In this document: positions 49,955 through 61,774 of the stretch, one piece after another | Layout: each line of letters opens with the position of its first letter | Numbering within the stretch: position 1 is the first letter of the stretch | Assembly (NCBI RefSeq): GCF_014206815.1 | Contig: NZ_JACHNP010000001.1 | Span: 400,456-464,455, forward strand | Source of the DNA: Xanthomonas sp. F10 | GTDB lineage: Bacteria > Pseudomonadota > Gammaproteobacteria > Xanthomonadales > Xanthomonadaceae | DNA length: 64,000 bases | Direction of reading: 5' to 3' | Position numbers and translations under genes: made by a program | Notes under the pieces: model-generated | What the model was told of the DNA's origin: nothing | Databases searched by the model: none | Seen by the model: the letters and a program-made list of their open reading frames with translations, nothing else

Positions 49955-50656
49955 GTGATCTCCTTCATCGTCCCCGCGCACGACGAAGCCGCCCTGATCG
50001 GCGACACGCTGGCCTCGCTGCACGTCGCCGCCCAGGCGCTGCGGCTGGACTGCGAGACGCTGGTGGTGGCCGACGCCTGCAGCGATGCCACCGCGGAGAT
50101 CGCGCGCCGGCATGGCGCGCAGGTGCTGGAGGTGGAACTGCGGCACATCGCCGCCGTGCGCAATGCCGGCGCCGCCGCCACCAGCGGCCGCCACCTGCTG
50201 TTCGTCGATGCCGACACCCGGGTCAATACGCCGCTGCTGGCCGCGGCGCTGCGCGCGCTGGGCACCGGCGCGGTCGGCGGCGGGGCGCAGGTGCGCCTGC
50301 TCGGCGACATCGCCTGGCACGAACGCCTGGCCCAGGCGCTGTTCGGCTGGCTGTTCCGCTGCACCGGCATCGCTCCCGGCTGCTTCCTGTTCTGCACGCG
50401 CAGCGCCTTCCTCGCCGCCGGCGGCTTCGACGAGCGCTACTACGCCGGCGAGGACGTCGCCCTGAGCCGCGCGCTGGCGCGGCAGGGACGCTTCGTGATC
50501 CTGCGCGAGCCGGTGCACACCTCCGACCGCAAGCTGCGCAGCTTCAGCAAGCGGGAGCACCTGGGGCTGTTGCTGCAGCTGCTGCGCCGCGGCCGCGGCC
50601 TGCTGCGCTCGCGCGACGGCCTGGGCTTCTGGTACGGGCAGCGCCGCGGGCGCTAG
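49955..50656 (+). CDS. Family 2 glycosyltransferase
   Basis: The 233-residue product has a GT-A fold: FIVPAHDEAALIGDTLASL at the start, VADACSDATAEIARR, the metal-binding DxD in LLFVDADTRVN, and GGFDERYYAGEDVALSRAL for the acceptor side. No membrane helices are evident. The start is a GTG at 49955 (reads VISFIVPAHDE). The sugar donor is unknown. It lies 64 bases after the aldo/keto reductase and may belong either to that operon or to the group that follows. Confidence 0.9.
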   Translation: MISFIVPAHDEAALIGDTLASLHVAAQALRLDCETLVVADACSDATAEIARRHGAQVLEVELRHIAAVRNAGAAATSGRHLLFVDADTRVNTPLLAAALRALGTGAVGGGAQVRLLGDIAWHERLAQALFGWLFRCTGIAPGCFLFCTRSAFLAAGGFDERYYAGEDVALSRALARQGRFVILREPVHTSDRKLRSFSKREHLGLLLQLLRRGRGLLRSRDGLGFWYGQRRGR

Positions 50657-50737
50657 GGCGTATCGTCAATTCCGCACAGGCGGCGTCGGGTCGGCAATGC
50701 GGTTGCGCCCAAGCGGGCGGCTTCCTACGCTCCGCAA

Positions 50738-51184
50738 ATGAGCGAGAACGGCACCCTGGAAATCAGGAACGCGGCGATGGCGGACCGGCAGGCGATCGTG
50801 GCGCTGATGGCGGCGCTGGACTATGCCGGAACCGAGGACTTCATCGAGGCCCGCCTGGCGCAACTCCTGGCGCACCCGGACGCGGCCTTGCTGGTGGCCG
50901 CCGCAGGTGACGACGTCTTGGGTGTGTTGTCGCTGCACTTTCTCCCGCAGTTGGCATTGGCCGGCGACATCTGCCGCATCAGCTATTTCTGCGTCGACGA
51001 TCGCGCGCGCGGCGCCGGGGTGGGACAGCGTTTGCTGGCGGAGGGCGAGGCGCTGGCGCGGCAGCGCGACTGCGACCGCCTGGAGGTGCACTGCCACAGC
51101 CGGCGCGAACGCGCGCACGCCTTCTATCGGCGGGAAGGCTTTGTCGAAGCGCCCAAGTATTTCGCCAAGTCGCTGCGCGATTGA
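50738..51184 (+). CDS. GNAT family N-acetyltransferase
   Basis: The 148-residue product is a single GNAT domain: LEIRNAAMADRQAIVALMAAL, then ISYFCVDDRARGAGVGQRLL with the acetyl-CoA loop RGAGVG, then AHAFYRREGFVEAPKYFAK. The substrate is unknown. Start ATG 50738. It is monocistronic by spacing: 81 bases after the glycosyltransferase and 112 before the ketosynthase. Confidence 0.9.
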   Translation: MSENGTLEIRNAAMADRQAIVALMAALDYAGTEDFIEARLAQLLAHPDAALLVAAAGDDVLGVLSLHFLPQLALAGDICRISYFCVDDRARGAGVGQRLLAEGEALARQRDCDRLEVHCHSRRERAHAFYRREGFVEAPKYFAKSLRD

Positions 51185-51296
51185 GGACTGTCTGAGGTCG
51201 CCAGCCGCAGACAGCGGCGGCGCGATCGTCCCAAGCGCGGTTGCCGGCGCCGACGTGCTGGCAGTACGCTGCGCGCCCCTTGTGCGAGCTTTACGG

Positions 51297-52313
51297 ATGA
51301 GCGTCCACACCAGCAGGCCCATTGCGCTGCGTCTCCTCGGCACGGGCGAGTATCTGCCCGCGCAGCAAGTGCCGGCGGAGACCTTCGACCGGCGCTGGGG
51401 CAAGCCCACCGGCTGGACCCTGCGGCATACCGGGGTGGCCACGCGGCACTATGCGAGCGCCGACGAGCCGGCCACCTTGATGGGCGAGCGCGCCGCGCGC
51501 GCGGCGCTGGAGGCGGCGCAGTTGCAGGCACACGAGGTGGATTGCGTGATCAGCGCCTGCAGCCTGATGGAACAGGCGATCCCGTGCAGCGCCGCGCTGC
51601 TGCACGCGCGGCTGGGCCTGCAGGGCAGCGGCATCCCGGCCTTCGACATCAACGCCACCTGCCTGAGCTTCATCGCCGCGCTCGACCTGGCCGCGGCCGC
51701 GATCGCCGCCGGCCGCTATCGCCGCGTGCTGATCGTCTCCAGCGAGATCGCCAGCGTCGGCCTCAACCCGGACGATGCGGACACCGCGCCGCTGTTCGGC
51801 GATGGCGCCGCGGCGGTGGTGCTCGGCGCCGACGCAGGCGACAGCGGTTCGCAATTGCTGACCGCGCGCCTGGAAACCTATTCCGAAGGCATCGACCACT
51901 GCCGCGTGCGCGCCGGCGGCACCCGCCTGCGCCTGGATCACGGTGTCGACGCGCTGCGCGCCGGCTCGCAGTTCGAAATGAACGGCCGCGCCACCTACCG
52001 CCTGGCCGCAGCGAAGCTGCCCGGCTTCCTGCAGCGGCTGCTGGCGCAGGCCGGGGTCGAGCTGGCGCAGCTGCGGCGGATCGTGCCGCACCAGGCCAGC
52101 GCCAAGGCGCTGCGCCACCTGCGCGTGGCGCTGGGGCTGGCGCCGGATGCGCTGATCGAGGTGATCGGCCACCGCGGCAACCAGATGGCCGCGTCGATTC
52201 CCGCCGCGCTGCACCAGGCGATCGCCAGCGGCCGCATCGTCCGCGGCGACCTGATCGGCCTGGTCGGCTCCGGCGCCGGGCTGGCGTTCGGCGGCGCGGT
52301 GTTGCGCTACTGA
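51297..52313 (+). CDS. KAS III-type 3-oxoacyl-ACP synthase family protein
   Basis: The 338-residue thiolase-fold enzyme has the complete condensing triad C122 (in DINATCLSF), H265 (in IVPHQAS) and N295 (in HRGNQMAAS). It should join an acyl-CoA or acyl-ACP starter to a second acyl unit. It is not the housekeeping FabH type by its N-terminus (LRLLGTGEYLPAQQVPAE) and by its operon. The ATG at 51297 is chosen; the open frame further upstream overlaps another gene. It is first in a five-gene coupled operon and stops 1 base before the next start. No acyl carrier protein gene is nearby. Confidence 0.92.
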   Translation: MSVHTSRPIALRLLGTGEYLPAQQVPAETFDRRWGKPTGWTLRHTGVATRHYASADEPATLMGERAARAALEAAQLQAHEVDCVISACSLMEQAIPCSAALLHARLGLQGSGIPAFDINATCLSFIAALDLAAAAIAAGRYRRVLIVSSEIASVGLNPDDADTAPLFGDGAAAVVLGADAGDSGSQLLTARLETYSEGIDHCRVRAGGTRLRLDHGVDALRAGSQFEMNGRATYRLAAAKLPGFLQRLLAQAGVELAQLRRIVPHQASAKALRHLRVALGLAPDALIEVIGHRGNQMAASIPAALHQAIASGRIVRGDLIGLVGSGAGLAFGGAVLRY

Positions 52314-52314
52314 C

Positions 52315-53292
52315 ATGGCCCGCGTCCTGGTCACCGGCGCGTCCGGCTTCATCGGCGCCTACATCGTGCGCGCCCTGGCCGAGGCCGGCGTACCGGTGCG
52401 TGCCAGCGGCCGCGACGCCGCCAAGCTGGCGGCCTTCGCCAACGATCCGCGCATCGAGGTGCAGCGCGCCGACCTCTGCCACGACGCGTTGGCGCCGCTG
52501 CTGCAGGGCTGCGATGCGGTGATCCACTGCGCCGCGCTATCGGCGCCGTGGGCCAGCGCCGAGACCTTCCGCCTGGCCAACGTGGTCGCCACCGAGCGCC
52601 TGCTCGCCGCCGCGCTGGCCGCGCGCGTGCGCCGCTTCGTGCACTTCAGTTCGCCGAGCATCTACTTCCGCTTCGCCGATCAATACCAGATCACCGAAGA
52701 CTTCACCCCACCGGCACGCTGGATCGGCGGCTACCCGCAGACCAAGTGGGAAGCCGAGGAGAAGGTGCGCGCGGCGGCGGCGGCCGGGCTGCCGGCGGTG
52801 GTGCTGCGCCCGCGCGCGGTGTTCGGCCATGGCGACAACGCGATCGTGCCGCGGCTGCTGGCGGTGGCGCAGCGCGGCTGGTTCCCGCTGGTCCACGGCG
52901 GCCGCGCGATGATCGACGTGTGCTGCGTGGAGAATGCGGTGGCCGCGGCGCTGGCCGCGCTGCGTGCCGAGCACATCGGCGACGGCCGCGCCTACAACAT
53001 CAGCAACGGCACCCCGATCGCGGTACGCGACCTGCTGACCGAGTTGTTCGCGGTGCTGCGCCTGCGCGTGCGGCTGCTGCCGGTGCCGCGCGGGCCGGCG
53101 CTGGCCCTGGCCACGCTCGGCGAACAGATCGCGCTGCGCCGACGCGGCCAACCCGAGCCGCGGCTCAGCCGCTACGGCATCGGCGTGCTCGGCTATTCGC
53201 AGACGCTGGACATCGGCCGCGCGCGCCGCGAACTCGGCTATGCGCCGGTGCTGTCGACCGAGGCCGGGCTGGCCGCACTGGGGCAGCCATGA
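52315..53292 (+). CDS. NAD(P)-dependent epimerase/dehydrogenase (extended SDR)
   Basis: The 325-residue enzyme has the cofactor motif VLVTGASGFIGAY (residues 4-16) and the catalytic Y140-x-x-x-K144 (in GGYPQTKWEAE) with serines at 112-113. The middle block VLRPRAVFGHGDN is typical of the 3-beta-hydroxysteroid dehydrogenase/OleD group, which reduces 2-acyl-3-ketoacids. Reduction of the ketosynthase product is a reasonable inference. It begins 1 base after the ketosynthase stop and overlaps the next gene by 4 bases. Confidence 0.93.
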   Translation: MARVLVTGASGFIGAYIVRALAEAGVPVRASGRDAAKLAAFANDPRIEVQRADLCHDALAPLLQGCDAVIHCAALSAPWASAETFRLANVVATERLLAAALAARVRRFVHFSSPSIYFRFADQYQITEDFTPPARWIGGYPQTKWEAEEKVRAAAAAGLPAVVLRPRAVFGHGDNAIVPRLLAVAQRGWFPLVHGGRAMIDVCCVENAVAAALAALRAEHIGDGRAYNISNGTPIAVRDLLTELFAVLRLRVRLLPVPRGPALALATLGEQIALRRRGQPEPRLSRYGIGVLGYSQTLDIGRARRELGYAPVLSTEAGLAALGQP

Positions 53293-54137
53293 GCGCGCCC
53301 CGGCTGCGCTGGCGGCTGTACGAAGCCGGCCACTGCACGCATCCCGAACGCGCCACGCGCCGCGGCGCGCCGCTGGCGCCGTGTCCGTTCCCGGCGCTGG
53401 CGGCACTGCTGCAGCATCCGCAGCACGGCGACCTGTTGTTCGATACCGGCTACGCGCGCCACTTCTTCGACGCCACCGCGCGCTTTCCCGAGCGCCTGTA
53501 CCGCTGGCTGACCCCGGTGCAGCTGGCGCCCGGGCAATCGCTGCGCGAGCAACTCGCACGCGACGGCGTGGAGCCGGACCGCATCGGCTGGATCGTGCTG
53601 TCGCACTTCCACGGCGACCACGTCGGCGGCGTCGCCGACTTCCCGCAGGCGCGCCTGGCCTGCGCGCAACAGGCCTGGGACGACCTGCAGCGCCGCGGTC
53701 GCCTGACCGCGTTGCGCGAAGGCTTCCTGCCGGCGCTGCTGCATGGCGCGCGCCCGCGCATGCACTGGATCGAGGCGCTGCCCGCGACGGTGCCGCCCGC
53801 CGCGCTGCGCGACTTCGGCACGCTGCGCGACCTGTTCGGCGACGCCAGCGTGCTGCTGGTGCCGCTGCCCGGGCATGCGCCGGGCCACTACGGCCTGTGG
53901 TTCGAGGACGCGCAGGGCCCGGTGTTCCTGATCGCCGATGCGGCCTGGTCCAGCGCCGCGCTCGCCGACGGCACGCCACCGCCGGCGCTGGTCACCCGCC
54001 TGCTCGGCGAGCATCGCGTGTACCGCGACACGCTGGCGCGGCTGCATGCGCTGCGCCAGGCCGAGCCGGGCTTGCGGCTGGTGCCCTCGCATTGCCGGCA
54101 GTGGCGGCCGGCGCCGCAGGCGCGCGCCGATGGCTGA
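53289..54137 (+). CDS. Metallo-beta-lactamase-fold hydrolase
   Basis: The 282-residue product has the full metal-binding set: H106, H108, D110 and H111 in LSHFHGDHVGG, H196 in LPGHAPGH, D217 in IADAAW and H268 in VPSHCR. Glyoxalase II-like, lactonase or thioesterase activity is possible; the overall plan resembles the quorum-quenching lactonase group. In this operon it may release an acyl thioester or open a lactone. The ATG at 53289 overlaps the previous stop (ATGA), and the end overlaps the next gene by 8 bases. Confidence 0.93.
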   Translation: MSAPRLRWRLYEAGHCTHPERATRRGAPLAPCPFPALAALLQHPQHGDLLFDTGYARHFFDATARFPERLYRWLTPVQLAPGQSLREQLARDGVEPDRIGWIVLSHFHGDHVGGVADFPQARLACAQQAWDDLQRRGRLTALREGFLPALLHGARPRMHWIEALPATVPPAALRDFGTLRDLFGDASVLLVPLPGHAPGHYGLWFEDAQGPVFLIADAAWSSAALADGTPPPALVTRLLGEHRVYRDTLARLHALRQAEPGLRLVPSHCRQWRPAPQARADG

Positions 54138-55311
54138 GGCGCCCGGCGTCCTGATCACCGGCGCGCGCGCGCCGGTCGCCCTGGACCTGGCGCGCCGTTT
54201 CGCCGCGCAGGGCTGGCGGGTGCATCTGGCCGACAGCGTCGCCAGCCGCATTTCCGGCTGGTCGCGCGCAGTGGCCGCGCATCACCGCGTGGCGCCGGCA
54301 CGCGATGCGCCGCGCGCCTGGCTGGCCGACCTCAATGCCCTGCTCGCGCGCGAGCGCATCGACGTGCTGGTACCGACCTGCGAGGAGGTGTTCTACCTGG
54401 CCCGCTACCGCAGCGCGCTGCCGGCGCAGTTGCACCTGCCGCTGCACGACTTCGACACGTTGCGTACGCTGCACAGCAAGTACCACTTCATGGAACTGGC
54501 GCGCGGGCTCGGCAGCGACGTGGAGGTGCCCGCCGGCGTGCGCGTGCGTAACCTGGCGCAGGCGCGCGAATGGGCAGGCAGCGCCCCGCTGGTGCTCAAG
54601 CCGGAATTCTCGCGCTTCGGCGTGCATGTGCGGCTGTACCCGGACGGTGTGCCCGCCGATGCCGCGCCGCTGCCCGCGCAGGGCGACTGGGTCGCGCAGC
54701 GCTACTGTGCGGGCGAGGAGCGCTGCTCGTACGCGCTGGCGCGCGACGGCGTGTTGCTGGCGCATGCGGTGTACCGACCGCGCTACCGCCTGCGGCGCAG
54801 TTCCAGCTATTACTTCGACGCGGCGCCGGATCCGCAGATCGAGCGCTTCACCGCGCAGCTGGTGCAGGCACTGCGCTTCACCGGACAGATCTCCTTCGAC
54901 TGGATGGTGTCTTCGGAAGGGCGCTGCAGCGTGATCGAATGCAATCCGCGCGCGACCAGCGGCCTGCACCTGTTCGCCGCGGCCGATCCGCTGGTGGCAT
55001 TGCTGTGCGGCGACGCGGGCGCGGCGCAGGCACCGCTGCGCCCGGCCGACGACCGCGCGGCGATGCTGGGCGTGCTGATGCTGGGCGTGGCCTTGCCGGC
55101 GGCGCTGGCCCAGGGCCGGCTGCGGCAGTGGCGCCAGGACTACGCGCGCGCCGAGGACGTGCTGGCGCCGCGCGGCGACCGCTGGCCGCTGGCCGGCACG
55201 CTGTGCGACCTGGGCAGCCATGCGCGGCTGGCGCTGGCGCAGCGCTGCAGCGTCCGCGAGGCCGCCACCCGCGATACCGAATGGGACGGCGAGGCGCTGC
55301 CGCCGCCATGA
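54130..55311 (+). CDS. ATP-grasp domain ligase
   Basis: The 393-residue enzyme begins with a Rossmann-like preATP-grasp domain (GVLITGARAPVALDLARRFA). K117 and K157 (in TLHSKYHFM and LVLKPEFSRFG) fit nucleotide binding, and E270-x-N272-x-R274 (in VIECNPRATSG) fits magnesium binding. ATP-grasp enzymes activate a carboxylate as acyl phosphate and join it to an amine or thiol. It is full length with catalytic residues intact. The substrate is unknown. The ATG at 54130 lies inside the previous gene and the stop overlaps the next start. Confidence 0.9.
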   Translation: MAEAPGVLITGARAPVALDLARRFAAQGWRVHLADSVASRISGWSRAVAAHHRVAPARDAPRAWLADLNALLARERIDVLVPTCEEVFYLARYRSALPAQLHLPLHDFDTLRTLHSKYHFMELARGLGSDVEVPAGVRVRNLAQAREWAGSAPLVLKPEFSRFGVHVRLYPDGVPADAAPLPAQGDWVAQRYCAGEERCSYALARDGVLLAHAVYRPRYRLRRSSSYYFDAAPDPQIERFTAQLVQALRFTGQISFDWMVSSEGRCSVIECNPRATSGLHLFAAADPLVALLCGDAGAAQAPLRPADDRAAMLGVLMLGVALPAALAQGRLRQWRQDYARAEDVLAPRGDRWPLAGTLCDLGSHARLALAQRCSVREAATRDTEWDGEALPPP

Positions 55312-56423
55312 CCGGCGCCGATGCCGAGGCCGCGGCGGCCGATTACGCCGCGCAGCTGCAGCGTTTCGCCACACTGCATGCCGGCGGCGACGCGCAGCAA
55401 CTGGCCGACAATGCGCATGCACGCATCGAGGTGCTGCGCGCCGGCGCACTGGCGCTGCCGGTGACGGTCGGCGAGCGCCACCCGGGCAATGCCTGGGTCT
55501 GCTCGCCGCGCACCACGTATGCCGACTATGCCGCCGAGGAAGCGGCGCGGCTGCTGCCCGGCGCGCTGTCCGCACCGGTGCGCGGGCTGTGCGGCGGCAT
55601 CGGCGCGTGGCTGGACTGGGCGAGGATCGATCGCGCGGTCACCCTCAACAACTGGCTGCTGTCCACCAACCTGTATCCGCCGCTGCCGCCGAGCGGCCTG
55701 CGCACGCTGCTGGACGCCGCACGCACGCGCTGGCCCGACCACGCGCTGTGGTTCCGCTCGCTCAACGCGGTGGACACGCCGCAGTGGCTGCACGCGCTGC
55801 AGGCCGAGGGCTTCACCCTGATCGCCAGCCGCCAGGTGTACCTGTACGAGGACTGGCCGCAGCTGCTGCGCCACCGCGACCTGGCGCGCGACCTCAAGCT
55901 GGTCGACCGCCGCGACCTGCAGCGCTGCGGCAACGACGCCATCGGCGAGGCCGATTACCCGCGCATCGCCGCGCTGTATGCGCAGCTGTATCTGGAAAAA
56001 TATTCGCATTGCAATCCGGCCTACCACGCCGGCTTCCTGCGCGCCTGGCACCGCGCCGGGCTGCTGCGCTTCGATGGCTTCCGCGACGCCACCGGGCACC
56101 TGGTGTGCATCACCGGCCTGTTCGGCATCGGCGGCACCGTCACCGCGCCGATCGTCGGCTACGACCTGCGCCTGCCGCAGCGGCTGGCGCTGTACCGCAC
56201 CCTCACCGCCTGCGGCATCGACCATGCGCGACAGTACGGCCAGCGCCTCAACCAGAGCGCCGGCGCCGCCAGCTTCAAGCGCCAGCGCGGCGGCGTGCCG
56301 GTCATCGAATACAGCGCGGTCGATGCGCGCCACCTGCCGTTGCGGCGACGCCAGCCGATCGCCGCGCTCGGCGCGCTGACCCGGGGCATCGGCGTGCCGC
56401 TGATGCGCCGCTACCGGCTGTGA
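55308..56423 (+). CDS. GNAT/FemAB-fold acyltransferase-like protein
   Basis: The 371-residue product has no exact family I can name. The second half (about 200-340) has the look of an acyl-CoA N-acyltransferase fold: ALYAQLYLEKYSHCNPAYHA, GLLRFDGFRDATGHLVCITG and GYDLRLPQRLALYRTLTACG. The first half includes NNWLLSTNLYPPLPPSGL. It may attach an acyl or aminoacyl group to the ligase product. The ATG at 55308 overlaps the ATP-grasp stop by 4 bases, so it is the last gene of the coupled set. Confidence 0.8.
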   Translation: MTGADAEAAAADYAAQLQRFATLHAGGDAQQLADNAHARIEVLRAGALALPVTVGERHPGNAWVCSPRTTYADYAAEEAARLLPGALSAPVRGLCGGIGAWLDWARIDRAVTLNNWLLSTNLYPPLPPSGLRTLLDAARTRWPDHALWFRSLNAVDTPQWLHALQAEGFTLIASRQVYLYEDWPQLLRHRDLARDLKLVDRRDLQRCGNDAIGEADYPRIAALYAQLYLEKYSHCNPAYHAGFLRAWHRAGLLRFDGFRDATGHLVCITGLFGIGGTVTAPIVGYDLRLPQRLALYRTLTACGIDHARQYGQRLNQSAGAASFKRQRGGVPVIEYSAVDARHLPLRRRQPIAALGALTRGIGVPLMRRYRL

Positions 56424-56564
56424 GCGGCGCCGCGCCGCGCGTTTTGCATTCCGTAACCGTTTTCAGCGCAAAACCCGCGTGTTTTGCCGAATGCCGGACG
56501 CACCCGCTGCCTTATACTTTGCTGCACCTGCAACACCCCATCGCCGCTGTGGCCCGGGACATCT

Positions 56565-57752
56565 GTGGAATGGATTGCGCATCTGGCCCATGCCGGCACC
56601 TTGCTGATCGTCAACGCGTTGCTCGCGGCAGTGTCCTCGGCGATGTTCCTGGCGGTGTACGTCACCGGCCGCAAGGAACGTCACGCGCGCAGCCTGTTGC
56701 TGCTGGCGCTGAGCTACGGCGTGTTCGCCCTGGGCTTCGGCACCCTGCTGGCGCCGGCCTGGCACTACATGGCGGACTGGGTCGCGCCCGCCGGCAACGT
56801 CACCCTGGACGTGGCCACCGTACTGACGCTGGTCGCGGTGAACGCCTACCTGCAGCGCCCGCTGCTGCAATGGACGTTGCTGGTACCGGTCACACTGCTG
56901 TGCGCACTGGAACTCTACAGCCTGCACTACGCCGGCCTCGATCACCGGATCATGGTGATCTTCGGCGGCCTGTTGCGCGGCATGCTGACCGTGGCCACGG
57001 CGGTGGTGCTGTGGCGACATGCCGACAGCACGGTGCGCGCGGCGGCGCGCTTCACCGCCGTCTTCCATTTCCTGTGGGCTGGCATGGTGGGACTGCGGGT
57101 GGCCTGGTGGGCCTTCCATCCCGACGTCGACACCAGCTTCGACCCGACCACCAACTTCGGCCTGCTCTCGCGCATCGTGCTGACCGCCAGCATCACGCCC
57201 GGCTTTCTGTGGATGCTGACCCGCGAAATGAACGCGGAACTGACCCGGCACGCCTCGCAGGATCCGCTGACCGGGGTCACCAACCGCCGGGTGATGTGGG
57301 AGCGCGGCGAGGCGGCGACCCTCGATGCCGCACGCCGGCAGGCGTCGATCGCGGTGCTGATGATCGACGTGGACCATTTCAAGTCGATCAACGATCGCTT
57401 CGGTCACGCCGTCGGCGACCAGGTATTGATCGCCATCGCGCAGACACTGGCGCAGCAGATCCGCGTGCCCGACCTGCTGGCGCGCATCGGCGGCGAGGAG
57501 TTCATGGTGCTGGTTCCGCAGGCCGACGAGGCGGGCGTGCGCGATCTCGCCGAACGCCTACGGCGACGCATCGAACAGCAACAGATCGGCGCCGCGCAGG
57601 AGGCGCCGCTGGTGTGCACGGTGAGCATCGGCTATTGCCTGTCGCCAGGCGCGCAAGCGTCCTGGCAGGCCCTGGTGCTGGCGGCGGACCAGGCGCTGTA
57701 CGCGGCCAAGCGCGCCGGCCGCAACCGGATCGCCGGCACCGCCCTCGCATGA
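56565..57752 (+). CDS. Membrane-bound diguanylate cyclase (GGDEF)
   Basis: The 395-residue product has about six N-terminal membrane helices (about 10-215), then a GGDEF domain. It carries the active site GGEEF (309-313), the inhibitory I-site RVPD (R300-D303) five residues before, and LMIDVDHFKSINDRFGHAVGD. It should make cyclic di-GMP under product inhibition. The start is probably GTG at 56565 (reads VEWIAHLAHAGTLL). It follows the five-gene operon by 141 bases and precedes the Rieske gene by 43. Confidence 0.93.
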   Translation: MEWIAHLAHAGTLLIVNALLAAVSSAMFLAVYVTGRKERHARSLLLLALSYGVFALGFGTLLAPAWHYMADWVAPAGNVTLDVATVLTLVAVNAYLQRPLLQWTLLVPVTLLCALELYSLHYAGLDHRIMVIFGGLLRGMLTVATAVVLWRHADSTVRAAARFTAVFHFLWAGMVGLRVAWWAFHPDVDTSFDPTTNFGLLSRIVLTASITPGFLWMLTREMNAELTRHASQDPLTGVTNRRVMWERGEAATLDAARRQASIAVLMIDVDHFKSINDRFGHAVGDQVLIAIAQTLAQQIRVPDLLARIGGEEFMVLVPQADEAGVRDLAERLRRRIEQQQIGAAQEAPLVCTVSIGYCLSPGAQASWQALVLAADQALYAAKRAGRNRIAGTALA

Positions 57753-57795
57753 TCGCTTGCCGTGGACCACACACGATCGCGGCGCTGCGCGCGGC

Positions 57796-58809
57796 ATGAG
57801 CGCCTGGCATCCGTCCCTGTATCGGCAGTGGTTCGCCGTCGCGCCCGCCACGGCGTTGCGACGGCGGCCGCTGGCGGTGTCGGTGATGGACCGGCATGCG
57901 GCGATCGCACGCTGCGCCGACGGCCGCCTGCTGGCGCTGGAAGACCGCTGCCCGCACCGGCACGCGCCGCTGTCGGCCGGCTGCGTCACCGGCGACGGCC
58001 TGTCCTGCCCGTATCACGGCTGGCGCTTCGACCATACCGGCGCCCTGCGCGAGATCCCCGGCCTGCCGCCCGGGCAGACGCCGCCGGCGGTGCGGGTGCG
58101 CGCCTTCGCCGCGCGCGAGCACGACGGGCTGATCTGGCTGCGCCCCGATCCCGAGGGCGCGGACGCGCCGTCGCAGCTGGTGCAGGCACTGCAGCCGTCG
58201 GCGCGTCGCTTCCTGTGGCGCACGCGCTGGGACGCGCACGTGGTCGATGCGCTGGAGAACTTCCTGGATCCGCTGCATACGCATCTGCTGCATCCGGGGC
58301 TGGTGCGACGCGGCGGCGCGCGCACCGCCATGCGCGCCGAACTGCGCCACACCGACGAAGGCTTCCACGTGGACTACCGCGGCGCCGCGGCGCAGAGCGG
58401 CTGGCTGTACCGGCTGTTCGAGTCGCCGCGCATCCTGGAACGCGCGCATTTCGCCGCGCCCGGCAGCGCGCAGATCGAGTACCGCTACGCGCGCGGCGGC
58501 CGCGTGCGGATCAGCCTGCACTTCACCCCGCTCGGCGTACGCAGCACCGATGTCTTCGCCAGCCTGCACGTGGAGGGGCGCTGGGCGCCGGCGTGGGCGG
58601 TGCGCCTGCTGGTGTGGCCGCTGCTGCACCGGGTCGGCGAGCAGGACCGGCGCATGCTCGCGCTGCAGTCGCGCAACCTGCAGCGCTACCCGGGCGCGCG
58701 CGGCGCCTCCACCGCGCTGGACCTGGTGCGCGAACCGCTGCGCCGCTACTGGGAAGGCGACGCGCGACCGACGCCCGGCAGCGGCCACGACGTGGAGATC
58801 ATGCTGTGA
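57796..58809 (+). CDS. Rieske non-heme iron oxygenase
   Basis: The 337-residue enzyme has the Rieske cluster ligands C52/H54 and C71/H74 (in DRCPHRHAPLS and LSCPYHGWRFDH). The mononuclear iron motif is N155-x-x-D158-x-x-H161-x(4)-H166 (in DALENFLDPLHTHLLHPG). It resembles the VanA/PaO/KSH-type monooxygenases, which hydroxylate or demethylate ring compounds. No ferredoxin or reductase gene is adjacent. The ATG at 57796 is chosen. Its 3' end overlaps the convergent EAL gene by 11 bases. Confidence 0.93.
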   Translation: MSAWHPSLYRQWFAVAPATALRRRPLAVSVMDRHAAIARCADGRLLALEDRCPHRHAPLSAGCVTGDGLSCPYHGWRFDHTGALREIPGLPPGQTPPAVRVRAFAAREHDGLIWLRPDPEGADAPSQLVQALQPSARRFLWRTRWDAHVVDALENFLDPLHTHLLHPGLVRRGGARTAMRAELRHTDEGFHVDYRGAAAQSGWLYRLFESPRILERAHFAAPGSAQIEYRYARGGRVRISLHFTPLGVRSTDVFASLHVEGRWAPAWAVRLLVWPLLHRVGEQDRRMLALQSRNLQRYPGARGASTALDLVREPLRRYWEGDARPTPGSGHDVEIML

Positions 58810-61774
58810 CCGCGCCGAGCCGCTGCAGCACCTCCGCCAGCGGGGCCGGACGCCCGAGCAGATAGCCCTGCACGCCGCCGCAGCCGTGCGCACGCAGCCA
58901 GCGCAACTGGCTGTCGGTTTCCACGCCCTCGGCGACCACGTCCAGCCCCAGGCAATGGCCCAGGGTCAGCAGCGCCTGGCAGATCGAGGCGTTGCGCGGA
59001 TCGCGGTCCACCTCGGCGACGAAACTGCGGTCGATCTTCAGCGTGTCCAGCGGCAGATCGCGCAGATACGCCATGCTGGAGAAGCCGGTGCCGACATCGT
59101 CCAGGGCCACGCGCACACCCAGCGCGCGCAGTTGTCGCAGCACGTCGCCGGCCTGCTGCGGCTGCCGCATCAGGCTGCTCTCGGTCAGCTCCAGCTGCAG
59201 GCCGTTGGCGGCCAGCCCGGCCTCGGCGCAGGCCTGTGCCAGATCGGCGACCAGGTCGCCATCGAAGAACTGCAGCGCCGACACGTTCACCGCCACCGGC
59301 AGGTCCGGCCATCCGTGGTCCACCAGTGCGCGGCGCGCGCGCGCCGCGGCGCGCAGCACCCAGCGCCCGAGCGGCAGGATCAGCCCGGTGTCCTCGCACA
59401 ACTGGATGAACGCATCCGGCGCAATGAAGCTGCCATCGGCCTGCGGCCAGCGGACCAGGGCCTCGAGTTCGCGCGGCGCACTGTTGCCGGCCTGCATGAT
59501 CGGCTGGAAATACAGCTCGAATTCCTGGCGCTCGATCGCCTGCTGGAGACGTCCGGCCAGGCGAAGGCGTTCGGCGGTGCGTGCCGCCATGCCGCGGTCG
59601 AAGCGCACCAGGCTGCGCCCCTCGGCCTGTGCCGCGTGCGCGGCCTGCGCGGCGCTGCCGATCGCCTCGTCGGCGTCGGCGGCATCGTCCGGACACAGCG
59701 CCACGCCGATGTGCGCCTGCAGTTGCTGGGCGAACTCGCCGCCCTGCACCGGCGCGTGCAGCGCCTCCTGCAGCGCCTGCAACGCCTGCGGCAGGGCCTG
59801 CGGGTCCAGGATCGCCAGCACGAAGTCCTGCGCCGGCTGATGCGCACTCAGGCCGAAGCACTCGCCAAGCGCGCGAATGCGCGCGGCCACCGCGTTGCGC
59901 ACCGCATCGCCCGCGGCGCGCCCCAGGGTGTCGCCGATCAGGGCCAGGCCACGCACCTGCACGTAGGCGATGGCATAGCCCGCCCGCTGCGCGCGCAAGG
60001 CGTCGGCCAGCGCGTTCGGCTTGAGCAGGCCGGTGCTGAAGTCGTGGCGCGCCAGGTAGGCCAGTTCGCGTTCGTGGGCCACGCGCTCGGTGACGTCCTC
60101 GGCCAAGATCAGCCGCGCCGGCACGCCGCCGAACTCCAGGTCGGCACTGTGGACGCACACCGACAGCAGGCTGCCGTCCTTGCGCCGATGGGTCCACACG
60201 CTCGGCGCGTCGAAGCCCTCGCGCGGCTTGCGCACGTCCTGCAGCAAGCGTTCTGCATCCTCCGCCGGACGCAGATCGCGCAGATCCATCGCCAGGAATT
60301 CCTCGCGGCTGTAGCCGTACTGGCGCACCGCGGCCTGGTTCACTTCCAGGAAGCGCAGGCTATCCACCGCGAACACCCAATACGGCAGCGGATTGCGATC
60401 GAACACCAGCCGGAACTGGCGCTCGGCATCGAGCAGGCGCGCCTGCGCATGCAGCCGGTCGCTGACATCCTGTACCGCACCGGTCATGCACATTCCTGTG
60501 CGGGTACGCACCAGCGCGCCACGCGCGGCCAACCAGCGCAGGCGCCCATCAGGCAGATGCATGCGGTAGACGGTGTTGTAGTCCGCGCGGCCCTGCGCGG
60601 CGTCCTCGAACAGCTGCGTCACCCGCGCGCGATCGGCGTCGTGGATCCGCTCCAGGAACGCCTCGATCGGCAACTGCATGCGCTGCAGGCCGAACATCGC
60701 GCCGGTCGGCTCGGACAGGCGCAGCACGCGCTCGGCGATGTCCACGCGCCAGGTCCCGATGCCGCCCATGCCGTGGGCCAGGCGCAGATCCTCGTCGCCG
60801 CGGCGCAGGCGCTGCAGCAGATGGCGCTGGCGCCGCTCGGCACGGCGCAGGCTGCCGAGCAGATAGGCCAGGCCGAGCAGGTACAGCACGTACACCAGCG
60901 CCGCCGCCGCGGCGAACCACCACCAGCCGGACAGCGTTTCGCGCAGCCCCACGCCGGCCACCGCCAGCAAGGGATGCGCGCCGCCACCACTCAGCGCCAG
61001 AATCCGCGGCGTGCGGTCGAAGACATCGCGGTGCAGACCCAGCGCGCCGCCGTGCGGCATCGGCTGCGCGAGTGCCGGCGGCAGCCGCGGCTGGCTGGCC
61101 GCAAGCGGGCGGCTGGCGGCCAGCAGCCTGCCCTGCGCGTCGGTCAGGGCGACGATGCCGTCGCGCCCGCTGTCGGTGCCTTGCACGATGCGCTGCAGCG
61201 CGGCCACCCGCCATTGCGCCTCCACCCAGCCGTCCGTTCCCCAGGGCACGGCCACCCGCACCACTGCCGTGCCGTCGGCCAGGCGCAGCGGCGGGCTCAC
61301 GCAGATCCGATCGCCGCAGCGCCCACGTTGCCGCCAGGCGCGCAGTTGCGCATCGCCGGCGCCACCGAAGCGGCGTTGGCCAGTCGCATCCAGCAAGGCC
61401 ACGTCGCGCAGTTCCGGGTGCCGTGCCAGCAGGCCGTGCAGCGACGCGGCAATCAGTTCTGGCGCGCGCACCGGCGCCTCCGTCAGCAGCGCTTGCGCGC
61501 TCAAGCCTTCGCCATGCAGGGCCTGGCCAAGATTGTCCAGTTGCAACTGCAGCAGGCGGTCGGTGCCGGTGGCCAGCGCCAGGCTCTGGCGCTGCGCCGC
61601 GGCCAGGCGGTTGTGGCGGTCCTGCGCCAGCACCAGTACCAGCCCAACGGCCAGCAGCACCGCCAGCGCCAGGCCCCAGGTCGCGATCGCCCGCAGTGGC
61701 GCGCGCGTGACGCGCCGCAGGCTGTGCCGAAAGCGACGGTCGCGCTTCCTGTCGGCGAGCGGCTTCTGCAGCAT
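58799..61774 (-). CDS. Membrane PAS-GGDEF(degenerate)-EAL phosphodiesterase
   Basis: The 991-residue sensor has a membrane helix (about 30-50), a periplasmic sensing region (about 51-283), a second helix (284-306), two PAS domains (about 335-440 and 450-565), a GGDEF domain lacking its signature (HQPAQDFVL in its place), and an EAL domain (about 740-985). The EAL domain keeps ELEALVRW, VNVSALQF, ELTESSL, DDVGTGFSS and VAEGVET, so cyclic di-GMP hydrolysis is likely. The ATG at 61774 is clear. It is convergent with, and overlaps, the Rieske gene. Confidence 0.93.
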   Translation of the reverse strand: MLQKPLADRKRDRRFRHSLRRVTRAPLRAIATWGLALAVLLAVGLVLVLAQDRHNRLAAAQRQSLALATGTDRLLQLQLDNLGQALHGEGLSAQALLTEAPVRAPELIAASLHGLLARHPELRDVALLDATGQRRFGGAGDAQLRAWRQRGRCGDRICVSPPLRLADGTAVVRVAVPWGTDGWVEAQWRVAALQRIVQGTDSGRDGIVALTDAQGRLLAASRPLAASQPRLPPALAQPMPHGGALGLHRDVFDRTPRILALSGGGAHPLLAVAGVGLRETLSGWWWFAAAAALVYVLYLLGLAYLLGSLRRAERRQRHLLQRLRRGDEDLRLAHGMGGIGTWRVDIAERVLRLSEPTGAMFGLQRMQLPIEAFLERIHDADRARVTQLFEDAAQGRADYNTVYRMHLPDGRLRWLAARGALVRTRTGMCMTGAVQDVSDRLHAQARLLDAERQFRLVFDRNPLPYWVFAVDSLRFLEVNQAAVRQYGYSREEFLAMDLRDLRPAEDAERLLQDVRKPREGFDAPSVWTHRRKDGSLLSVCVHSADLEFGGVPARLILAEDVTERVAHERELAYLARHDFSTGLLKPNALADALRAQRAGYAIAYVQVRGLALIGDTLGRAAGDAVRNAVAARIRALGECFGLSAHQPAQDFVLAILDPQALPQALQALQEALHAPVQGGEFAQQLQAHIGVALCPDDAADADEAIGSAAQAAHAAQAEGRSLVRFDRGMAARTAERLRLAGRLQQAIERQEFELYFQPIMQAGNSAPRELEALVRWPQADGSFIAPDAFIQLCEDTGLILPLGRWVLRAAARARRALVDHGWPDLPVAVNVSALQFFDGDLVADLAQACAEAGLAANGLQLELTESSLMRQPQQAGDVLRQLRALGVRVALDDVGTGFSSMAYLRDLPLDTLKIDRSFVAEVDRDPRNASICQALLTLGHCLGLDVVAEGVETDSQLRWLRAHGCGGVQGYLLGRPAPLAEVLQRLGAVTA

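Follow-up and report, generated by a model that had tools for sequence, protein, structure and literature searches.

An operon of Xanthomonas sp. F10 whose core recurs in three phyla and may serve an Ole-like, carrier-protein-free lipid pathway

Two kinds of described system stand close to the operon reported here: the ketosynthases (KSs) CorB and MxnB, which join two polyketide chains into alpha-pyrones (PMC5724707) and which carry Val at the position of the OleA/PpyS glutamate, so that they have no Glu base (PMC4578411), and the OleABCD pathway, with its short-chain dehydrogenase/reductase (SDR) OleD. Both bear on a 64,000-nucleotide stretch of Xanthomonas sp. F10 (contig NZ_JACHNP010000001.1, positions 400,456 to 464,455; “the window” throughout), part of a genome of 4.78 Mb and ~70% G+C. 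In it, genes for a KS, an SDR, a hydrolase of the metallo-beta-lactamase (MBL) fold, an ATP-grasp ligase and a GNAT-like acyltransferase occupy 51297-56423 on the + strand, each with an ATG start and with successive gaps of +1, -4, -8 and -4 bases (Table 1). We propose, with a probability of roughly 40%, that these genes encode an Ole-like, carrier-protein-free pathway to a lipid backbone.

The evidence begins with the recurrence of the genes as a set. KS, SDR and MBL genes together with a gene of the family TIGR02304 (“F390 synthetase-related,” adenylate-forming) form a core that recurs in Pseudomonadota, Bacillota and Fusobacteriota; in the window the first three are adjacent in core order and the TIGR02304 member is absent. 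The fullest form, found in relatives, has seven genes: the five of the window's operon, the TIGR02304 enzyme and a Rieske oxygenase. Within Xanthomonas, a full-length ATP-grasp match was present in 14 of the 19 genomes searched (that of the window included), fragmented in one (G017) and lacking in four, and the same five-gene order stood in all 13 cluster-bearing relatives fetched. The Rieske gene was present in 13/13 of these relatives, and thus in 14/14 intact Xanthomonas loci with the window; G017 had the Rieske gene broken along with all of the five, and the four cluster-less genomes had no intact Rieske orthologue (a fragment in G001 and G002, none in G008 and G016) and otherwise held only distant Rieske matches of 30-31% identity. 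The two fragments (L146:3958-4068 and L149:4880-5104) mark former pathway sites. GNAT and Rieske genes are immediate neighbours, in that order, in Duganella, Rhodanobacter, Dyella and Oleiagrimonas. Because it is present in every intact locus, is lost or broken along with the five genes and directly follows GNAT in other genera, the Rieske gene belongs to the pathway set; we took its start as the Met14 codon, since that residue is invariant in 27 rows. The GGDEF gene that lies between GNAT and Rieske in 11 of the 13 cluster-bearing relatives was considered as a pathway gene and rejected: it was undetected in the other two, its frame is still open (396 aa) in the broken-pathway genome G017, and it is present at the site in cluster-less G002 and G016 (undetected in G001 and G008).

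The original prediction had described a translationally coupled five-gene operon, and its coordinates, gaps, strand and gene order were exact. Its view of the genes as one biosynthetic unit also holds, in that they are co-inherited in the same order in every cluster-bearing Xanthomonas relative fetched, and the gene-order check that it proposed found the genes conserved together across phyla, so that the contrary outcome it had allowed for falls away. The catalytic residues that it listed are kept as well, as the alignments below record. Where it fell short was in the extent of the unit, to which the Rieske gene also belongs and to which relatives add the TIGR02304 gene, whose absence the letters of the window by themselves could not reveal.

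On the KS, the best relatives of solved structure were CorB (2e-55) and MxnB (5e-55), at 34-35% identity. The column of the OleA catalytic Glu, with the position taken from PMC4578411, holds Ile or Leu in all 31 cluster KSs (Ile95 in the window), and Glu only in the OleA resident in the window genome, an assignment made from its place in the ole locus and its PRK09258 score. A 25-member KS tree set the cluster KSs, together with CorB and MxnB, apart from the resident FabH-like and OleA proteins (ultrafast bootstrap, UFBoot, 93); the placement of CorB and MxnB inside the cluster-KS group was poorly supported (56-60). The likeness suggests a KS that joins two chains. A pure duplicate of FabH was rejected, on a TIGR00747 score of 221.8 bits against a cut-off of 292.1 and on the same grouping apart from the resident FabH-like protein. 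Elsewhere in the window genome (contig C1, ~1.26 Mb; L139:6435-10818) lies another KS of the beta-ketoacyl-ACP synthase III (KAS III) type, 25% identical to the window KS and followed by frames that by eye resemble an SDR and a ring-hydroxylating oxygenase.

These relatives would also fit a pyrone or butenolide signal, in which the KS alone would join and cyclise two beta-keto chains as MxnB and CorB do and the other enzymes would decorate the ring. In its favour, no solved relatives are closer than CorB and MxnB, and these lack the Glu (PMC4578411) as the window KS does; the MBL enzyme weakly resembles lactonases. However, MxnB and CorB work with carrier proteins of polyketide synthases (PKSs), which are absent from the operon; PpyS, according to PMC4578411, needs no SDR partner; the aligned loci retain the SDR in 30 cases and the MBL in 32; and reduction of the beta-keto group would be expected to block pyrone formation. 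We therefore consider such a signal unlikely.

The alignments point to enzymes that are kept intact. The catalytic triad of the KS (Table 1) is invariant in 33/33 rows, comprising 31 cluster KSs, the window's included, and two resident paralogues (L139 and L140), and the SDR Tyr/Lys pair is invariant in 31/31 rows, the resident OleD (L140) among them. In the MBL protein H106, H108, D110, H111, H196 and D217 are invariant in 32/32 rows, and the window and 26 of the 32 rows have a C-terminal His268, where the other six show a gap; E270, N272 and R274 of the ATP-grasp protein are invariant in 40 rows. The KS, SDR and MBL alignment omits 14 near-identical or broken Xanthomonas rows, and an earlier protein set omits the SDR of L079, the KS of L090 (broken) and the GNAT proteins of L076 and L077 (the L076 GNAT frame is open). 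The ratio of nonsynonymous to synonymous substitution rates (dN/dS), taken between the window and seven Xanthomonas loci, was 0.12-0.46 for all six Xanthomonas pathway genes, which are under purifying selection. Further, the distance matrices of all seven proteins correlate pairwise (r 0.82-0.975; 10-31 loci per pair), and in none of the 21 pairs did any of 2000 permutations reach the observed value. The operon, its intact sites, the co-inheritance of its six genes and the lack of the seventh are thus matters of observation.

The same data bear on whether the Xanthomonas operon is a fading remnant of the seven-gene pathway, left behind after loss of the activating enzyme. Xanthomonas has no TIGR02304 gene, the set is missing or broken in 5 of the 19 genomes, and Rieske fragments persist in two of the four that lack it, all of which such decay would explain; but the dN/dS values, the catalytic residues, intact in the window as well as in each of the two Xanthomonas groups sampled, and the 14 of 19 genomes that are intact by ATP-grasp match and locus order make a remnant quite improbable.

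The missing gene is found in relatives. A 1.3-kb gene lies between MBL and ATP-grasp in Duganella, Rhodanobacter (two loci), Dyella and Oleiagrimonas, and it belongs to TIGR02304 (Dyella 426 bits, Thermoflavimicrobium 548 and locus L076 266, against a cut-off of 251.9; in the remaining loci the gene was assigned by tblastn similarity). It directly follows MBL in every core locus that holds it, save the plasmid loci L153 and L154, where it lies apart from the other core genes. No TIGR02304 match was obtained in the 19 Xanthomonas genomes searched, the window's own included, and in the window there is no room for the gene, because MBL and ATP-grasp overlap by 8 bases. A Stenotrophomonas metagenome-assembled genome (MAG) likewise has KS-SDR-MBL-ATP-grasp without TIGR02304, with a stop inside the KS frame and no GNAT or Rieske match at the locus.

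A substitute may be at hand in the resident ole locus of the window genome (L140), which encodes OleC (1033 bits; NF045786 cut-off 900) and OleD (636 bits; cut-off 580). OleC is present in all 19 Xanthomonas genomes, so in the 14 intact cluster carriers that lack TIGR02304, and also in the Stenotrophomonas MAG; it was absent at E 1e-60 from all 15 genomes with a TIGR02304-type gene in the cluster, for six of which completeness is not stated. The pattern is consistent with OleC standing in for the TIGR02304 enzyme in Xanthomonas, and we give it modest weight, because OleC occurs in every Xanthomonas genome, with or without the cluster.

What the core might make is suggested by its partners. Among 398 genomes of the phylum, all six TIGR02304 genes over cut-off adjoin KS, SDR and MBL genes, and three genomes with a match below cut-off also have the gene beside these three. 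Seven genomes other than the window's held an ATP-grasp match above 200 bits, five with the cluster and two (G433 and G689) with ATP-grasp only in the stretch fetched; lone ATP-grasp relatives also stood in the stretches from G038 and G049, and a lone GNAT relative in that from G250. The plasmid sample took in 10 of 17 records of one search, and 9 of 26 of another (one a 2-kb stretch), a further seven of the 26 being records already among those opened. Complete sets of seven genes stand on plasmids of Shinella and Rhizobium and in a record that bears the label Roseateles, and in these the ATP-grasp gene runs opposite to the others; a Paraburkholderia plasmid also carries all seven, its Rieske match being split over two frames. 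The order KS-ATP-grasp-SDR-MBL-TIGR02304 is that of plasmids of Paenibacillus, which also has a GNAT gene, and of Pontibacillus. Three Bacillota cluster KSs exceed the PRK07204 cut-off and two Bacillota ligases that of TIGR02304; the Bacillota ATP-grasp proteins reach 339-392 bits on PRK06849, under the cut-off of 406.

Beyond these, the core keeps other company. Four loci taken as enteric (L135-L138) carry the quartet, and nothing in their stretches matched ATP-grasp; one (L135) continues with PAP2, fatty-acid hydroxylase and desaturase genes, and another (L137) carries two desaturases. An Escherichia coli operon of the same kind, composed of KS, SDR, MBL, F390-related, PAP2, sterol desaturase and acyl-CoA desaturase genes under generic names only, was present in 672 of 5426 complete genomes (671 over at least 80% of the query), and in two records, the KE48 plasmid (L151:9191-16072) and the chromosome of the uropathogenic E. 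coli (UPEC) 26-1, it lies between narI and purU. In Fusobacterium vincentii the order is SDR-MBL-TIGR02304-like-KS, and next to it stands a glycosyltransferase of the family GT21, to which ceramide glucosyltransferases belong. The quartet of Paracoccus and Ketogulonicigenium stands beside a divergent TetR/sulfotransferase pair (the sulfotransferase checked in Paracoccus and as annotated in Ketogulonicigenium), and that of Rhizobium pMK-2 is followed by DUF3419, a family that includes the BtaA-type aminocarboxypropyl transferases of betaine lipids, and then by a GNAT-like gene, with no ATP-grasp match in the 19-kb stretch. Two Deinococcus plasmids hold ATP-grasp and GNAT as an overlapping pair (L129:7992-10249 and L130:7992-10240) with no core in the 17-kb stretches. 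The partners of the core elsewhere act on lipids (PAP2, FA_hydroxylase, FA_desaturase, GT21, DUF3419 and sulfotransferase) and so point to a lipid product, rather than to the small acylated compound that the original prediction had envisaged.

Each chemical step of the pathway, and its product, we infer from these assignments. A KS of CorB/MxnB type would condense one acyl unit with a second or with a malonyl unit; reduction of the resulting beta-keto compound by the OleD-like SDR would give a beta-hydroxy acyl, of which the MBL enzyme would hydrolyse a thioester or lactone. In most of the bacteria, activation of the acid to acyl-AMP, and perhaps to a beta-lactone, would then fall to the TIGR02304 enzyme; in Xanthomonas, where that gene is gone, resident OleC or ATP-grasp alone may take over. 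The ATP-grasp ligase would attach an amino acid or amine to the acid, the GNAT enzyme would acylate this head group, and the Rieske oxygenase would oxidise the chain. The core, in short, would make a hydroxylated acyl backbone that different modules finish, and ATP-grasp and GNAT may be a sub-module for an amino-acid head group acylated by GNAT, as suggested by their occurrence without the core in Deinococcus and by GNAT beside DUF3419 in Rhizobium. More tentatively, the core may define a second family of Ole-like lipids, in at least three phyla and in about one in eight complete E. coli genomes, in which MBL and TIGR02304 enzymes replace OleB and OleC, the backbone is hydroxylated and the finishing modules are swappable; in the Xanthomonas form, ATP-grasp would attach an amino-acid head group for GNAT to acylate, the Rieske enzyme would oxidise the chain, and OleC would be borrowed for activation. 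This broader view seems possible to us, if doubtful.

ATP-grasp enzymes make their own acyl phosphate, which leaves space for a simpler scheme in Xanthomonas: FabH-type extension, reduction, thioester hydrolysis by MBL and coupling by ATP-grasp to an amino acid would give a small N-acylated amino-acid amide with no adenylate step, a product unlike that of the seven-gene relatives. The full Cys-His-Asn (CHN) triad of the KS and the missing TIGR02304 enzyme in the window genome would suit this. Against it, many relatives hold both a TIGR02304-type enzyme and ATP-grasp, so that ATP-grasp alone is not a general solution, and the desaturases and fatty-acid hydroxylase found elsewhere imply long chains; the small amide thus appears rather unlikely. 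To a reading of the operon as catabolic or detoxifying, built on a lactonase, an oxygenase and a transferase, we give very little credence: MBL and Rieske enzymes are common in catabolism, but a KS and, in the family, two ATP-dependent ligases point to synthesis, and no transporter or regulator recurs as a member of the set in the loci opened. Anti-phage defence was also considered and rejected, as none of the five operon proteins had a PADLOC match.

For the Ole-like lipid pathway count, on sequence likeness, a KS nearest to the chain-joining CorB and MxnB and an SDR nearest to OleD. Several considerations pull the other way. The KS lacks the Glu of OleA and PpyS, so that non-decarboxylative joining of plain acyl chains is less certain, and the enzyme may instead carry out malonyl extension of the FabH type. 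A single gene loss in a single lineage could account for the OleC pattern, and the sole further case without TIGR02304, the Stenotrophomonas MAG, has OleC but also the stop in its KS frame. The distance-matrix correlations, in turn, are partly shared ancestry.

The assignments of the single proteins differ in kind. The KS passes the Pfam cut-offs for the N and C domains of ACP_syn_III, the SDR falls under Epimerase / 3Beta_HSD and the MBL under Lactamase_B; the ATP-grasp and GNAT proteins of the window matched no Pfam family at E 0.01. They were assigned because relatives pass PF02655 and PF13480: two Bacillota ATP-grasp relatives score 38.2 and 35.6 bits on PF02655 (ATP-grasp_3; cut-off 23.2), and on PF13480 (Acetyltransf_6; cut-off 22) two of five GNAT relatives pass (29 and 23.8 bits), one falls under and two, from Deinococcus, have no match, nor have the window GNAT and the Rhizobium pMK-2 GNAT-like protein. 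The best named families were all under cut-off (PRK07204 for KS, 361.8 against 402 bits; OleD for SDR, 184.1 against 580; NF045700, AttM, for MBL, 61.5 against 390; and PRK06849 for ATP-grasp, 316.6 against 406), and the same search gave no named family for GNAT. Alignment profiles of GNAT and ATP-grasp gave marginal matches only among PDB sequences (best E 0.0011, a designed protein, and 0.0099, carbamoyl-phosphate synthase, respectively). Within the window no tRNA was found and nothing matched Rfam at gathering score; no sigma-70-like promoter pattern was found in 50600-58900, which at ~70% G+C is uninformative.

Table 1. Positions of the pathway genes and of adjoining features in the window
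Feature	Position	Strand	Remarks
KS, KAS III-fold ketosynthase, CorB/MxnB-like, 338 aa	51297..52313	+	C122/H265/N295; Ile95 at OleA base-Glu position
SDR, extended type, nearest named family OleD	52315..53292	+	184 bits vs cut-off 580; Y140/K144
MBL-fold hydrolase	53289..54137	+	nearest named families N-acyl homoserine lactone (AHL) lactonases, 61.5 bits, far under cut-off; HxHxDH and further metal ligands
MBL/ATP-grasp 8-bp overlap	54130..54137	+	site of TIGR02304-type gene in Dyella, Rhodanobacter, Oleiagrimonas and Duganella; none in window
ATP-grasp ligase, PRK06849-like	54130..55311	+	316.6 bits vs cut-off 406
GNAT-like acyltransferase, Acetyltransf_6 type	55308..56423	+	type assigned through relatives only
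GGDEF gene, neighbour outside pathway	56484..57752	+	sits between GNAT and Rieske genes
Rieske oxygenase with VanA_C domain, sixth pathway gene	57796..58809	+	frame open from 57757; start = Met14

Upstream of the KS, at 50738-51184, stands a further, small GNAT gene that occurs in some relatives; we do not count it as part of the unit, because it was undetected in four of the loci. Some loci look damaged or misassembled, with SDR matches split over two frames in L079, L150 and L153; in the last of these, from Leaf58, the core genes are scattered and the ATP-grasp and SDR matches are each split over two annotated frames. On large Pseudomonas plasmids (L155 and L133, which are the same plasmid, L153 and L154), core and ATP-grasp genes lie, partly dispersed, amid numerous hypothetical genes. 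At L135:2745-4113, in a genome of enteric type, the lipid-type core operon has as neighbours an autoinducer synthase/regulator pair and a pectinesterase gene.

If the proposal is right, many bacteria, some E. coli included, make a class of lipids for which we found no structure described, and a compact gene set would open a direct way to it. Taken as a series, the varied tailoring modules would lend themselves to a dissection of the individual steps, while from the TIGR02304/OleC pattern comes a specific prediction for the function of an uncharacterised ligase family.

Compared with described systems, the closest likeness of the KS is to MxnB and CorB, with which it shares the CHN triad, the lack of a Glu base and the QA.P and NA.CLSF stretches, and which are its closest solved relatives; theirs, however, act on PKS carrier proteins to yield a pyrone, whereas here there is no PKS and there are instead a reductase, a hydrolase and a ligase. 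The lack of a carrier protein or modular synthase had been part of the original prediction, and none is found among the operon genes; its idea of Ole-type KS/SDR logic with other partner types was likewise borne out, in that the SDR is nearest OleD and MBL takes the place of OleB. Its statement that no described pathway has this set agrees with our literature search, which brought up no characterised pathway for the set on terms that were partly narrow and did not extend to the E. coli and Fusobacterium forms.

With OleABCD the operon has in common a KAS III-fold KS, an OleD-type SDR and, in relatives, an adenylate-forming enzyme, in a four-function core with no dedicated carrier protein. It differs in a KS without the OleA Glu and with 24% identity to the resident OleA; in an SDR far below the score on the OleD equivalog (NF042422) that the resident OleD reaches; in an MBL instead of the alpha/beta hydrolase OleB, no alpha/beta hydrolase being found among the operon genes; and in a TIGR02304 enzyme (in relatives) instead of OleC, the resident OleC lying on another contig (C4), with ATP-grasp, GNAT and Rieske enzymes in addition. 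We do not file the operon as an Ole pathway, because the four Ole features tested (Glu KS, OleD score, OleC and OleB) fail. PRK07204, PRK06849 and TIGR02304 are NCBIfam family names without a pathway, and the window KS and ATP-grasp fall under the cut-offs. With the E. coli narI-purU operon the core quartet is common, and PAP2, hydroxylase and desaturase genes stand there in place of ATP-grasp, GNAT and Rieske.

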